DNA of 42,752 bases, taken from NCBI GenBank assembly GCA_002786785.1, contig PCUD01000045.1, forward strand, positions 35,459 to 78,210. Reading direction: 5' to 3'. Positions within the stretch are counted from its first letter, which is position 1, and each line of letters opens with the position of its first letter. Shown here piece by piece: positions 16,849 through 35,476 of the stretch. Made by a program: the position numbers and the translations under genes. The notes under the pieces were generated by a model that saw only the letters and a list, made by a program, of their open reading frames with translations, was not told the origin of the DNA and ran no database searches. The stretch comes from Ignavibacteriales bacterium CG18_big_fil_WC_8_21_14_2_50_31_20. Lineage in GTDB: Bacteria; Bacteroidota; Ignavibacteria; Ignavibacteriales; Melioribacteraceae.

Positions 16849-17104
16849 TTTTTCCTTTTATTAAATGTTTACGGACAGTGTATTAGTACAAAAACCGTAC
16901 CACTATATATTATTCAATTTGAGACGATAATATAATAGTTGTAAAATTGTTTGTGAGCTATTTTGAGAAATTATCTCATTATGGGAAAATGGAACTTAAT
17001 TTTAAAATAATTGTAATTATAGTCTAGTTAAAGCACCAATAAAATTAAGCATCAATTGCTATTTTATTTTGTATATTTTTATTGTAATTAAATTCAAATT
17101 TGGA

Positions 17105-25434: not shown

Positions 25435-26535
25435 ATGACTACAGAAGAATTCCAAAAAAAACACGGTATAATTGGTAAATCCAAGCGAACAAAGGATTTA
25501 GTTGATATCATCCAACAAGTCGCTGATGCTGATATTTCCATATTAATTACTGGCGAAAGTGGAGTTGGAAAAGAAGTTTTTGCTCGTGCAATTCACGAAG
25601 CAAGCAAAAGAGCAAGCAAAAATCTTGTTAATGTTAATTGTGGTGCAATTCCGGAAGGACTTTTAGAATCAGAACTATTTGGTCATGAAAAAGGTTCTTT
25701 TACTGGAGCAACTGATGTTCGAAAAGGCTATTTTGAAATTGCAGATAAAGGAACTTTATTTCTTGATGAAATTGGCGAAATGTCGCTTACAACACAAGTA
25801 AAGCTTTTGCGGGTTTTAGAAACAAACGAATTTATGCGAATTGGGAGCGAAAGAGTTACATCGGTTGATGTTAGAATTATTGCAGCAACAAATAAATCTT
25901 TGGAAATTGAAGTTCAAAATAAAAGATTTAGAAATGATTTGTTTTTTAGACTTAAAGCTGTTACTTTAACAATTCCTCCTTTGCGTGAAAGAAAAGAGGA
26001 TATTATTCCTTTGTCTGATTATTTTATAAAAAATTATTCTGAGAAGAATAATTTACCAACTTTTGAATATAGTGACGATGTACCAAACTTCTTGCTTAAT
26101 TATCATTGGCCAGGAAATATTAGAGAGTTAAAAAACACAATAGAATCGGCATTAGCATTAAACAATACAGGAAAAATATCTGCCGATTCATTTGATTTGC
26201 TTCTTTCAAGTCCGGTGCAGTTAGAAGCAAACAGAAATTTACCAGTATATCTAGATAGACCATCTGATGCTTTAGATAGAGAAATGATATACCGTGCGTT
26301 AATTGATATTAAAAAAGATATTAACGATTTGAAAAACATTGCAAAATTAAATTATAATAGTGTTGAAAATAATAGCATTAATTCTAATAAAATAATTCCA
26401 ATTGAGGAATTAGAAAAAAATGCAATAATTGATGCTCTAGAATATACAAAATGGAATAAAAAGCTTACATCAAAGTTGCTAAATATTAGTGAACGTACGC
26501 TTTATAGAAAATTGAAGGAATATGAAATTGATTAG
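25435..26535 (+). CDS. Sigma-54 interaction domain transcriptional activator, no sensor domain
   Basis: Enhancer-binding proteins of this type use ATP to open sigma-54 promoters. The 366-residue protein begins almost directly with the AAA+ core: Walker A GESGVGKE at 40-47, the sigma-54 contact loop GSFTGA at 87-92 (most relatives have GAFTGA), Walker B LFLDEI at 108-113, and FRNDLFFRLKAV. A linker with REMIYRALIDIKKDINDLK joins a Fis-type helix-turn-helix at about 325-365. No N-terminal receiver, GAF or PAS domain is present, so it may be controlled by synthesis, by a partner protein, or be always active. It overlaps the LptE-like gene by 14 nt. A sigma-54 promoter lies about 3.3 kb downstream. 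Confidence 0.95.
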   Translation: MTTEEFQKKHGIIGKSKRTKDLVDIIQQVADADISILITGESGVGKEVFARAIHEASKRASKNLVNVNCGAIPEGLLESELFGHEKGSFTGATDVRKGYFEIADKGTLFLDEIGEMSLTTQVKLLRVLETNEFMRIGSERVTSVDVRIIAATNKSLEIEVQNKRFRNDLFFRLKAVTLTIPPLRERKEDIIPLSDYFIKNYSEKNNLPTFEYSDDVPNFLLNYHWPGNIRELKNTIESALALNNTGKISADSFDLLLSSPVQLEANRNLPVYLDRPSDALDREMIYRALIDIKKDINDLKNIAKLNYNSVENNSINSNKIIPIEELEKNAIIDALEYTKWNKKLTSKLLNISERTLYRKLKEYEID

Positions 26536-27028
26536 AAATATCATTGCTATAGCAATTTTAGCTTTGTTGTTGAGTTGTAGCTATTCCTTTACAGGCTCTT
26601 CTGTGCCATCTCATCTTCAAACTATTTCAATTCCTATTGTTAAAGATAAAAGTGGTTCTGGTGAAGCAAATATTAGTAGCAATCTTACACAAAATTTAAT
26701 ACAACAATTTATAGATGATAATAGTTTGCAGGTTATTAACTCTGTTAATTCTGACGCAATTCTTTCTGTTTCAATTATTTCCTTTCAAGAAAGAACTGAG
26801 GTTGTTTCTGGTGAAAATGAAAAGGCAACAGTTCGTAGAATTACAATAACTTTGCAAGGTATTTATAAAGATTTAGTAATGAAAAAAACAGTTTTTGATA
26901 AAAAATTTTCAAATTACGCTACATTTGATGCAACATCAAAGTCAATCGAAAATAGACAAAATGCAATTCAACTTGCTATTGAGAACGTAAATTTGGATTT
27001 ATTGTTAGCAGTAGTAGCTGACTGGTAA
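26522..27028 (+). CDS. lptE: LptE-like outer-membrane lipoprotein
   Basis: LptE plugs the LptD barrel and helps deliver LPS to the outer surface. The 168-residue protein starts with a signal peptide and lipobox LLSC (lipidated Cys19), then SYSFTGSSVPSHLQTISIPIV, the typical 'YxF...tI.vp.f' opening of LptE and related assembly lipoproteins. The strand-helix pattern and length fit. The ATG is inside the 3' end of the activator gene, so translation is likely coupled. Activator-LptE adjacency is common in Bacteroidota. Sequence identity to proteobacterial LptE is very low, so the symbol rests on pattern and context. Confidence 0.75.
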   Translation: MKLIRNIIAIAILALLLSCSYSFTGSSVPSHLQTISIPIVKDKSGSGEANISSNLTQNLIQQFIDDNSLQVINSVNSDAILSVSIISFQERTEVVSGENEKATVRRITITLQGIYKDLVMKKTVFDKKFSNYATFDATSKSIENRQNAIQLAIENVNLDLLLAVVADW

Positions 27029-27057: not shown

Positions 27058-28521
27058 ATGACAAGTTTCCCATTTCCAGAATTAGTTCTGATTTTGTACA
27101 CCTTTTCGCTTTTTGTGTTGTTAATTTTCTCAAGCCATGGATTTATTATGCTTTATTATCAGCATAAACACAGAAATAAAATTACACAGGGATTAATTAA
27201 TATTGATACTTCAAAAATAGTAACAATCCAACTTCCAATTTTTAATGAAATGTACGTTGTTGAGCGGCTTATAAACGCTGTTTGCAAACTCGACTATCCA
27301 AAAGAAAATCTTGAAATACAAGTCCTTGATGATTCAACGGATGAGACTTCCAATATTGTTGCTAATCTTGTTAAACAAAAATTAGAAGAAGGTTTTTTAA
27401 TTAAACATATTCAGCGAATAAATAGATCTGGTTTTAAAGCAGGTGCTCTTAAAAATGGACTTGCTGAAACGAAGGGTGAGTTTATTGCAATTTTTGATGC
27501 TGATTTTATTCCACCATCAGATTTTTTGACAAATACATTACCTCATTTTTATTCAAAAAATATTGGAATGATACAAACACGTTGGGGTCATTTGAATGAA
27601 AAAGAATCACTATTAACAAGAGTGCAGGCTTTTGCTCTCGATGGGCATTTTGCCATTGAGCAAAAAGTTAGAAACGATGCTGGTTTTTTCATAAATTTTA
27701 ATGGTACAGGCGGTGTTTGGCGAAAAGAGTGTATTGAAGATGCAGGCAATTGGGAAAACGATACTTTAACTGAAGATTTGGATTTAAGTTATCGTGCTCA
27801 ATTAAAAGGCTGGCAATTTGTTTATCTCAAGGATATTACAACTCCCGCTGAACTACCTTCCGAAATGAGTGCTTTAAAATCGCAGCAATTTAGATGGACA
27901 AAAGGAGCAATTGAAACAGCAAAAAAACTTTTGCCTGCAATTTGGTTATCAAATATGAGTCTCAGACTAAAATTGCAATCAACTTTTCATTTAACAAATA
28001 ACTTTGTGTTTCCATTTGTGCTTGTAGTTGCACTTCTTAATTTACCACTTCTTTTTATTAAACACGGTGGAAATTTTGATACATATTTCCAGTATAGTTC
28101 GTTATTTGTTATAGCATTTATTAGCACTTTTTTGCTTTATATTTCAGCTCAAAAAAACATATATATTGATTGGAAAAAAAGAATTCTAATTTTCCCATTA
28201 TTTTTATCAGGAACAATGGGACTTGCATTGAATAACACAAAAGCGGTTCTTGAAGGTGTTTTTAATAAAAAAAGCGAATTTATACGAACTCCAAAATTTG
28301 CAAATGAAAGCGAAAAAAAAGTTGTAAATATATATATTCCCAAAAGTAAAATTTCGGTGTTAATGCTTGTTGAAATAATTTTTGCTATTTATAGTCTAGT
28401 TGGAGTAATTACTGCAATTTATTTTCTGGAACTTGCTGCACTTCCATTTAATATGATGTTCTTTTTTGGATTTTTTTCAGTGTCAATTTTATCATTAAAA
28501 CAAGTATTAATAAAAAAATAA
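27058..28521 (+). CDS. Family 2 glycosyltransferase, cellulose/glucomannan synthase-like
   Basis: A processive, membrane-embedded glycosyltransferase of 487 residues. There is an N-terminal helix (about 8-32), a GT-A domain with DDSTDE at 91-96, DAD at 147-149 (metal and donor), TED at 238-240 (catalytic base region) and QQFRW at 266-270 (acceptor site), then C-terminal helices. These are the four motifs of the cellulose synthase superfamily; the TRWGHLN and GTGGVWR segments resemble the CslA/mannan-type branch. It has no PilZ domain in the visible sequence. The polysaccharide made cannot be named. It follows the LptE-like gene by 29 nt. Confidence 0.9.
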   Translation: MTSFPFPELVLILYTFSLFVLLIFSSHGFIMLYYQHKHRNKITQGLINIDTSKIVTIQLPIFNEMYVVERLINAVCKLDYPKENLEIQVLDDSTDETSNIVANLVKQKLEEGFLIKHIQRINRSGFKAGALKNGLAETKGEFIAIFDADFIPPSDFLTNTLPHFYSKNIGMIQTRWGHLNEKESLLTRVQAFALDGHFAIEQKVRNDAGFFINFNGTGGVWRKECIEDAGNWENDTLTEDLDLSYRAQLKGWQFVYLKDITTPAELPSEMSALKSQQFRWTKGAIETAKKLLPAIWLSNMSLRLKLQSTFHLTNNFVFPFVLVVALLNLPLLFIKHGGNFDTYFQYSSLFVIAFISTFLLYISAQKNIYIDWKKRILIFPLFLSGTMGLALNNTKAVLEGVFNKKSEFIRTPKFANESEKKVVNIYIPKSKISVLMLVEIIFAIYSLVGVITAIYFLELAALPFNMMFFFGFFSVSILSLKQVLIKK

Positions 28522-28533
28522 TTAACTTTAAAT

Positions 28534-29166
28534 ATGAATATTAGAAATGAATACAAAGCTATATATGAATTAAATAGCAAATCACCACTTTTTGCACGTG
28601 TTGCATCGGATGAGGTACAGAAATTTAATTATGACAAAGCAATAACAATATTGCAAAATGGAATAGAATTGTTTGAAAATTACCCAACTCCATATTTTTT
28701 GTTAGGAAAATTATATTTAGAAATTGGAGATAAAACAGAAGCTGAAGAATGTTTCCAAAAAGGTAATTTGTTATTAGACAACTCCAAAACTCTCGAATTT
28801 TACAAAGGGCAAACTTTTATTCAAAATAGCGAAATAGAAACTTTTGAGAATTCGGAAAGTTTAAAAAATGAGGAGTTAAATCTTTCTGATGAACTTGAAA
28901 ATTTGGCTAATGTTTTAAAAACAGCTAAAATAAATGTAAATATTGATGAAGATTATTCTTTTGTTGAGCCTAGTGCTAAAAATGAACCAGATAATTTTTT
29001 GCCACCCAAAGGATTAGTTTCTGAAACCTTAGCATCAATTTATTATGACCAATCTAATTATAGAGAAGCAAAAGCTATTTATGAAACATTGATAGAAATA
29101 CAACCACAACGTGCAGAGCATTTTAAGGCGAAAATTGCTGACATAAATTCAAAAACAAAAACTTAG
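28534..29166 (+). CDS. Tetratricopeptide-repeat protein, unknown role
   Basis: 210 residues. TPR-like helical pairs lie near both ends: FNYDKAITILQNGIELFENYPTPYFLLGKLYLEIGDKTEAEECFQKG early and YYDQSNYREAKAIYETLIEIQPQRAEHF late. The middle (about 95-150) is acidic, with many Glu, Asn and Leu residues, and probably disordered. There is no signal peptide, so it is probably cytoplasmic. It begins 12 nt after the glycosyltransferase stop and ends 4 nt before the 3-methyladenine glycosylase gene, so it is co-transcribed with both, and may serve as a scaffold for the glycosyltransferase. Confidence 0.78.
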   Translation: MNIRNEYKAIYELNSKSPLFARVASDEVQKFNYDKAITILQNGIELFENYPTPYFLLGKLYLEIGDKTEAEECFQKGNLLLDNSKTLEFYKGQTFIQNSEIETFENSESLKNEELNLSDELENLANVLKTAKINVNIDEDYSFVEPSAKNEPDNFLPPKGLVSETLASIYYDQSNYREAKAIYETLIEIQPQRAEHFKAKIADINSKTKT

Positions 29167-29170
29167 AAAG

Positions 29171-29785
29171 ATGTTTGAGCTTAACGTTCATTCCAAACTG
29201 AAGCTAAATTTTTACAAAGAGCCAACATTAAAGGTTGCCCAAAATTTACTTGGCAAAGTTTTAATAAGAGTCATTTCTGGAATTCCTTTGGCGGGGATAA
29301 TCGTTGAAACGGAGGCATATCTTTCACAAAACGATGAAGCTTCTCATTCATTTAACGGAAAATCAAAACGTAATAATACAATGTTTAATAGCTGTGGCTA
29401 TTTGTATGTTTATCAAATTTATGGGATTCACTATTGCTGCAATGTTGTTACTGGAAAAGAAAATGTTGGCGAAGCTGTTTTAATTAGAGCAATTGAACCA
29501 ATATTGAATAAAGAAATAATGCATAAAAATAGGTTTAATAATAACAACTTCATACCAGAAAAATTAATTTCTCTTTCAAATGGTCCAGCAAAACTTTGCA
29601 AATCTTTAGCAATTACAAAAGATGATGATGGTACAAATTTATTAGGAAATGATATTTATATAGTGGAAGGGAATACAATTCCAAAAGGAAAAATAGTAAT
29701 AACAAATAGAATAGGAATAAATAAATCAAAAGAACTGCCATTTCGGTTTTATATTGAGGATAATAAATTCATTTCAAACAAATGA
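29171..29785 (+). CDS. DNA-3-methyladenine glycosylase (AAG/MPG family)
   Basis: Removes alkylated and deaminated purines from DNA as the first step of base excision repair. The 204-residue protein shows the family segments: VAQNLLGKVLIR, IVETEAYL with the general-base glutamate (about residue 47), DEASHSFNGKSKRNNTMF, and GYLYVYQIYGIHYCCNVVT, whose Tyr and His contact the flipped base. GPAKLCKSLAI and a short C-terminal strand follow. It ends the plus-strand run that begins with miaB, and its link to the envelope genes before it is probably only positional. Confidence 0.93.
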   Translation: MFELNVHSKLKLNFYKEPTLKVAQNLLGKVLIRVISGIPLAGIIVETEAYLSQNDEASHSFNGKSKRNNTMFNSCGYLYVYQIYGIHYCCNVVTGKENVGEAVLIRAIEPILNKEIMHKNRFNNNNFIPEKLISLSNGPAKLCKSLAITKDDDGTNLLGNDIYIVEGNTIPKGKIVITNRIGINKSKELPFRFYIEDNKFISNK

Positions 29786-29872: not shown

Positions 29873-29890
29873 TTGGCACACAACTTGCAT
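29873..29890 (+). promoter_or_regulatory. Sigma-54 (-24/-12) promoter of the DUF3108 gene
   Basis: TTGGCAC at 29873-29879, five bases, then TTGCAT at 29885-29890. GG (29875-29876) and GC (29887-29888) are separated by exactly 10 nt, as required. This fits the consensus YTGGCAC-N5-TTGCW at every fixed position. Transcription would start near 29900, giving a leader of about 59 nt before the ATG at 29959. It lies in the 173-nt gap after the glycosylase gene, which otherwise holds nothing I can name. Confidence 0.85.
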
Positions 29891-29958
29891 ACTGCAGGAA
29901 GTAAAAAAGAATTATTAATCAAATTTTAAGTAATTTATAATCTAATTATGAGTTTATT

Positions 29959-30714
29959 ATGAAATCAAAAGCAATAATATTATTATTTATCCTGTCGCAA
30001 TTAGTTTTTGCACAAGATAATTTTAGAAAAATAGAGAATAATGCATTTACAGTTGGTGAAAAACTAACTTTTAATGTGAAATATGGCTTTATTACAGCCG
30101 GTGTGGCAATAATGGAAATTCCCAAAATTAAAAGAATTGCTGGACGAGATGTTTATCATGTTACGTTTAGTGTAAATTCAATACCAAGCTTTGACCCTTT
30201 CTATAAAGTACGAGATAGATATGAAACATATTTAGACGTTGAAGCTTTGTTCCCTTGGCGTTTTGAACAACATGTTCGTGAAGGTGGTTTTAGTATGGAT
30301 TTTGCTGCATTTTTTGATCACAGAAAAGGTGTTGCAAAAACCAGCAAAGGTACATACGAAATTCCCCCAAATGTTAACGATATTGTTTCTGCATTTTATT
30401 ATGCAAGAACTTTGGATTATTCTAACTTAAAGGTTGGAGATAAATTTGAACTTTATAATTTTTATAAGAAAAAAGTTCATCCTTTAGATGTTGTTTATAA
30501 AGGAAAAGAAACTATAGAAGTGGAAGCAGGAACATTTAATTGCATAATGGTAGAACCAATTATTGCAGAAGGTGGTTTATTTAAAACCGAAGGTCAAATA
30601 ACAATTTGGTTAACCGATGACGAATTAAAAATTCCTGTAAAAGTAAAGACAAAAATAATAATTGGCTCAATTGATGCCGAGCTTTCTAAAATTGAAGGAT
30701 TAAAGAAAAATTAA
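29959..30714 (+). CDS. Secreted DUF3108-family protein
   Basis: 251 residues with a signal peptide (cleavage likely after the Ala in VFAQ, about residue 18). The mature protein begins FTVGEKLTFNVKYGFITAGVA, the usual opening of DUF3108, and continues with many antiparallel strands, including DVYHVTFSVNSIPSFDPFYKV and DDELKIPVKVKTKIIIGS. The fold is thought to be a beta-barrel-like periplasmic domain; its function is not known. The gene has its own sigma-54 promoter, which points to controlled expression. Its 3' end interlocks with the convergent amidase and carries a hairpin. Confidence 0.88.
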   Translation: MKSKAIILLFILSQLVFAQDNFRKIENNAFTVGEKLTFNVKYGFITAGVAIMEIPKIKRIAGRDVYHVTFSVNSIPSFDPFYKVRDRYETYLDVEALFPWRFEQHVREGGFSMDFAAFFDHRKGVAKTSKGTYEIPPNVNDIVSAFYYARTLDYSNLKVGDKFELYNFYKKKVHPLDVVYKGKETIEVEAGTFNCIMVEPIIAEGGLFKTEGQITIWLTDDELKIPVKVKTKIIIGSIDAELSKIEGLKKN

Positions 30715-35221: not shown

Positions 35222-35476
35222 GAATTTTAATTTATAGTCTCTCTAGTTTTAAAATCTTTGAGATAATAAATTAGCTAATCTTTTTTGTTATTTTGCATAT
35301 TTAGAAAACGATTCTAAGTTATTGGAATATTCTTTTTGCAAATAGTATTTTTCTCTTATATTAATAATCAAATTTGCTATTTCATCCAATAATCAGAACT
35401 TTTACTTAATTTTAGCCATGAACTTATCTGGCATAGATATTGTTTAATTCGACATTATAAATTAAAAAGGATAAAC

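Follow-up and report, generated by a model that had tools for sequence, protein, structure and literature searches.

The gene for an exported DUF3108 protein in Ignavibacteriales bacterium CG18_big_fil_WC_8_21_14_2_50_31_20 is very probably served by a working sigma-54 promoter, a reading drawn from sequence comparison within the 42,752-nt stretch of DNA analyzed here (the window) and across related genomes. The element, TGGCACACAACTTGC, lies in sense orientation in the 173-nt intergenic gap between the genes for a methylpurine-DNA glycosylase (MPG) and DUF3108 (Table 1), with its -24 box starting 85 nt 5' of the DUF3108 ATG. It shares all ten fixed positions with the canonical consensus TGGCAC-N5-TTGC, separates GG (29875–29876) from GC (29887–29888) by exactly 10 nt (GG-N10-GC), and is the only match without mismatches to TGGCACNNNNNTTGC in the window. 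The first-pass annotation, made from the window sequence alone, had called both the boxes with this spacing and the gap correctly. The longest published consensus differs in carrying a G after TGGCAC, where this site has an A. The class is the known -24/-12 switch, and the site is new in detail only.

Sigma-54 promoters in general start transcription about 12 nt past the -12 GC, and an element at -85 from the ATG leaves room for a leader. We infer that sigma-54 RNA polymerase would bind the -24 TGGCAC and -12 TTGC as a closed complex, which an AAA+ activator would open, with a predicted start near 29900 and presumed use in vivo. No fitting sigma-70-type competitor was found in the gap, where the two weak matches run into the end of MPG or the beginning of DUF3108. 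Because no terminator was found after MPG in the 173-nt gap, read-through from the upstream cluster may also occur. An inverted repeat near the element (29825–29838/29862–29875) was not seen in the closest relative (G004), and no activator-binding dyad upstream of the element was common to the genomes in which DUF3108 is linked to an activator gene.

Table 1. Features of the DUF3108 locus (window coordinates) and copies of a repeated leader elsewhere in the genome.
Feature	Position	Strand	Basis
Sigma-54 activator, AAA+ with GSFTGA loop and Fis-type HTH; candidate regulator	25435..26535	+	Sigma54_activat E 1.2e-70
lptE, LPS-assembly lipoprotein; overlaps activator gene	26522..27028	+	profile match
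Family 2 glycosyltransferase, same cluster	27058..28521	+	profile match
TPR protein, same cluster	28534..29166	+	profile match
Methylpurine-DNA glycosylase (MPG), directly 5' of promoter gap	29171..29785	+	profile match
Putative -24/-12 sigma-54 promoter element, TGGCAC-N5-TTGC	29874..29888	+	sequence match, spacing controls, relatives' footprint
Predicted 5' leader, ~59 nt	29900..29958	+	inferred from sequence and general sigma-54 spacing
DUF3108 protein (PF11306), 251 aa, N-terminal signal peptide by eye	29959..30714	+	profile match
Repeated leader copies	L131 697; L132 2814–2828 (-); L137 5025; L158 4375 (-); L008 1501		

The bare pattern TGGYAY-N5-TTGC occurs 47 times genome-wide, against 8 matches for a reversed control, and most of the 30 matches inspected lie inside genes; this count is not decisive. 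The element rises above chance because of its intergenic position and the specificity of its spacing. Across 779 kb of this genome and G004, TGGYAY-N5-TTGY was found in sense orientation upstream of genes seven times, compared with two for ten other spacings combined, and still five times against two once the site at 29874–29888 and its G004 orthologue were left out; this sample carries a mild bias, as several of its contigs were already known from the list of pattern matches. Near sigma-54 activator genes (294 kb), the ratio was 11 to 1 for the other spacings. Such sites stand before only some 2% of the genes that have a gap upstream, with a higher density near activator genes. At the final base of N5 sites upstream of genes, all sampled DNA gave C in 8, T in 11, A in 1, and G in none, a count that includes stretches chosen for TTGC matches; TTGT was therefore counted as a -12 box, which the genus seems to accept about as often as the canonical TTGC. 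Judged from these patterns, a -24/-12 class truly exists in the genus, with TTGC or TTGT as the -12 box. Dinucleotide shuffles of the 173-nt gap produced TGGYAY-N5-TTGY in 41 of 20,000 cases. The earlier view that a chance match is unlikely agrees with these shuffles and with the spacing-specific excess, and is tempered by how common the bare pattern is genome-wide.

The same pattern is overrepresented before DUF3108 genes as a family. Among 15 such genes with a gap of at least 60 nt, the window's own included, 8 carry a match at 9/10 or 10/10 positions of TGGYAY-N5-TTGY (shuffled mean 0.55, maximum 4 in 1,000 runs) and 3 match at 10/10 (shuffled mean 0.023), while the antisense strand gave none. 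With a control spacing of 3, 4 of the 15 genes also reach 9/10, and the 9/10 threshold alone is therefore weak.

Other sites of this type were seen in the genus. The sequence TGGCATAGATATTGT at 35429–35443 (+) of the window, identical in G004, lies 48 nt 5' of a methylmalonyl-CoA mutase small-subunit gene and is likely a second sigma-54-type site, with TTGT. On the opposite strand, TGGTACGGTTTTTGT at 16888–16902 (-) stands 54 nt 5' of a gene for a 149-aa membrane protein, with TGGTACGGTTATTGT as its G004 counterpart at -57. A further sigma-54-type site, TGGCATTAGTTTTGC at L135 3743 (+), is found 47 nt 5' of a flgB-like flagellar gene (identified by eye), and this 15-mer is also present in G004.

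Lack of conservation of the boxes in close relatives, which the first-pass annotation had named as a refutation, applies in part: the -24 box and the TTG are kept, but the -12 C is not, being replaced by TTGT or TTGA in close relatives. The closest relative, G004 (90% protein identity), has TGGCATATATTTTGT at the identical -85 position, a TGGCAY-N5-TTGT element in a gap that otherwise aligns poorly with that of the window. Upstream of DUF3108, G003 carries AGGCATAGCATTTGT, G001 a degenerate GGGCATAACTTTTGA, and G002 no element, such that the -24 GGCAY and the TTG are retained in four of the five genomes of the genus and the -12 C in this genome only. The -12 box reads TTGA in G001, G032, and G162, a form that is not generally enriched. 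Overall, the element precedes DUF3108 in this genome (G000), G004, G003, G009, G032, and G162, spanning three genera, with the degenerate form in G001 and a near match with GG-N10-GC in a fourth genus (G143, TGGCATGCTTTATGC). G017, which stood outside the linkage comparison, has a 9/10 match (TGGCATAAGAGTTGG). Matches in G044 and G051 (CGGTATCGTGCTTGC) were dropped, as they overlap apparent signal-peptide codons of the gene.

Most DUF3108 genes of the order have little upstream sequence. Among 109 loci, 92 were scored with an upstream gap shorter than 60 nt (median distance -1). These include the window itself, miscalled via a spurious reading frame; none of the remaining 91 has the element. 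The strict element was likewise absent from 60 further relatives, which gave a single NGGYAY-N5-TTGH match, mostly because DUF3108 abuts the upstream gene. Outside the genus, a heptosyltransferase-type gene is the one that abuts DUF3108 at 21 of the 25 nearest loci, and a search for a sigma-54 motif before the heptosyltransferase-DUF3108 pairs of relatives found none.

The sigma-54 activator gene recognized earlier was recovered by profile match, ending 3.3 kb upstream of the element in the same orientation, and its product has no N-terminal sensor domain. Since the genome encodes about 14 sigma-54 activators, proximity alone would be weak evidence of a regulatory tie. Reading 5–12 kb around free-standing DUF3108 genes, we found that in all eight genomes bearing the element in full, degenerate, or near-match form (G000, G004, G001, G003, G009, G032, G162, and G143), DUF3108 ends an activator-lptE-glycosyltransferase cluster, which usually also includes the TPR and MPG genes. 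In G002 and G019, DUF3108 is unlinked and lacks the element; in G008, it follows MPG, with no element and no activator gene within the stretch read. This association was drawn post hoc from eight genomes of four genera, which are not independent. It supports regulation of DUF3108 by the linked activator as the best available hint, short of proof, and the proposed tie to the neighboring activator gains from the way the element tracks activator-linked copies while still facing some 14 candidates. The sensor-less protein of the same cluster is the most likely activator of the DUF3108 promoter, a choice made with somewhat less than even confidence.

Absence of rpoN from the genome would count against the promoter, as the first-pass annotation had pointed out, and rpoN was indeed undetectable in this assembly (3.81 Mb, 182 contigs, rated 99% complete) with TIGR02395, PF04552, or RpoN from the closest relative as query. 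However, rpoN is present in 53 of 55 genomes searched, including all four congeners, and in the two congeners examined it sits in a block DUF3109-rpoN-methyltransferase-PPIase-hslV-hslU (names assigned by eye). The assembly also lacks hslV, and the 10-kb rpoN block, used as a DNA query, returned short weak matches only; apparently, the whole block around rpoN is missing from the assembly. Because hslV is missing too, relatives have rpoN, and about 14 activators are present, the evidence suggests that an assembly gap is much likelier than loss of rpoN, and the real chromosome would be expected to carry the gene.

Four other explanations of the site were weighed against this reading. A chance match in an A+T-rich gap, with DUF3108 transcribed by read-through from the cluster before it, is unlikely: genome-wide, bare-pattern matches do fall mostly inside genes, and the gap has no terminator that we could find 3' of MPG, but shuffling rarely recreates the element, G004 keeps its copy at -85 despite the poorly alignable gap, and the element recurs in linked relatives. 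Quite unlikely is a housekeeping (TAnnTTTG) or SM5-type (TAnnTTGY) promoter that resembles a sigma-54 site. Both classes exist in Bacteroidota, the former as the sigma-A motif and the latter in Flavobacterium psychrophilum (PMC9723704), and TAnnTTGY would accommodate the G004 copy TATTTTGT; yet the site here reads CAACTTGC, without TA, and matches neither box. Further, the class to which it belongs requires a spacing of exactly 10 nt between GG and G(C/T), is not enriched when that spacing is changed, and is confined to a small fraction of gapped genes, with greater density near activator genes.

A fragment of a repeated leader, which at other places in the genome carries TTGGCACACAATTTGC with a poly-C run, is highly improbable as the source of the site. 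This leader, of about 300–400 bp, stands before different lipoprotein or secreted genes and contains TTGGCACACWATTTGC followed by about 6–9 C; several copies part from one another immediately past GTTGGGT, a pattern reminiscent of integron attC ends or phase-variable leaders. Three copies of a 15-mer differing from the element by one base would favor such an origin, but the whole 418-bp leader as query did not return the 29874–29888 locus, and the element's orthologous position in relatives, together with its divergence there, points to an old element distinct from the leader. The repeated leader also accounts for three perfect-looking matches with poly-C tails, which we left out of the supporting evidence. 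The alternative with the most weight, though below an even chance, accepts the promoter and assigns it to another of the 14 or so activators, with the protein encoded at 25435–26535 serving other targets. The number of activators, the many sigma-54-like sites elsewhere, and the lack of a common upstream binding site in linked genomes all favor it; against it, the element tracks linkage in the eight genomes and is absent where linkage is lost. The sigma-54 promoter called in the first-pass annotation is well supported, by the spacing excess in the genus, recurrence in three genera, and the near match in G143.

The DUF3108 protein matches PF11306 with an E-value of 5.8e-45 (154.1 bits against a gathering cut-off of 26). 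The family has been described with a YmcC-like fold (PDB 3FZX; PMC4364669), with which the protein here shares PF11306 membership and export; a sequence search of this subfamily against solved chains gave no useful match, so that the fold is only presumed for the protein here, and a structure prediction (pLDDT 31) was not used. An outer-membrane or LPS-related role is plausible. The "envelope or stress response" proposed in the first-pass annotation would rest on the gene neighbors and on F. psychrophilum, whose sigma-54 regulon (motif SM4) includes chaperones, envelope stress, gliding/motility, and exported proteins without known function (PMC9723704). As here, -24/-12 promoters in that member of the Bacteroidota precede envelope-type genes and an activator gene lies beside lptE, although SM5 governs the activator-lptE operon there, the list of sigma-54 targets does not name DUF3108, and Ignavibacteriales were outside the scope of the study (PMC9723704). 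A wider survey links sigma-54 with the outside of the bacterial cell (Francke et al. 2011; PMC3162934), a theme that a predicted target encoding a secreted envelope protein beside LPS-assembly genes would fit, although the main text of that work does not mention Bacteroidetes, Chlorobi, or lptE.

Sigma-54 control in Ignavibacteria has hardly been studied, and a full-text literature search for sigma-54 promoters in this group found no paper. If the activator encoded at 25435–26535 acts on the promoter, DUF3108 would come under common control with functions in LPS and outer-membrane assembly, lptE among them. More tentatively, we propose a traveling module, in which, across Ignavibacteriales, a sensor-less activator in a miaB-lptE cluster would act locally on a -24/-12 promoter of DUF3108 and so link the family to LPS/outer-membrane assembly, with sigma-54 accepting TTGT at -12. 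Searches for sigma-54 sites that demand GC at -12 would then miss about half of those in the clade. If the promoter reading is true, DUF3108, a widespread family without an assigned function, would gain a regulator, a conserved lptE neighborhood, and a role in envelope maintenance that can be tested.
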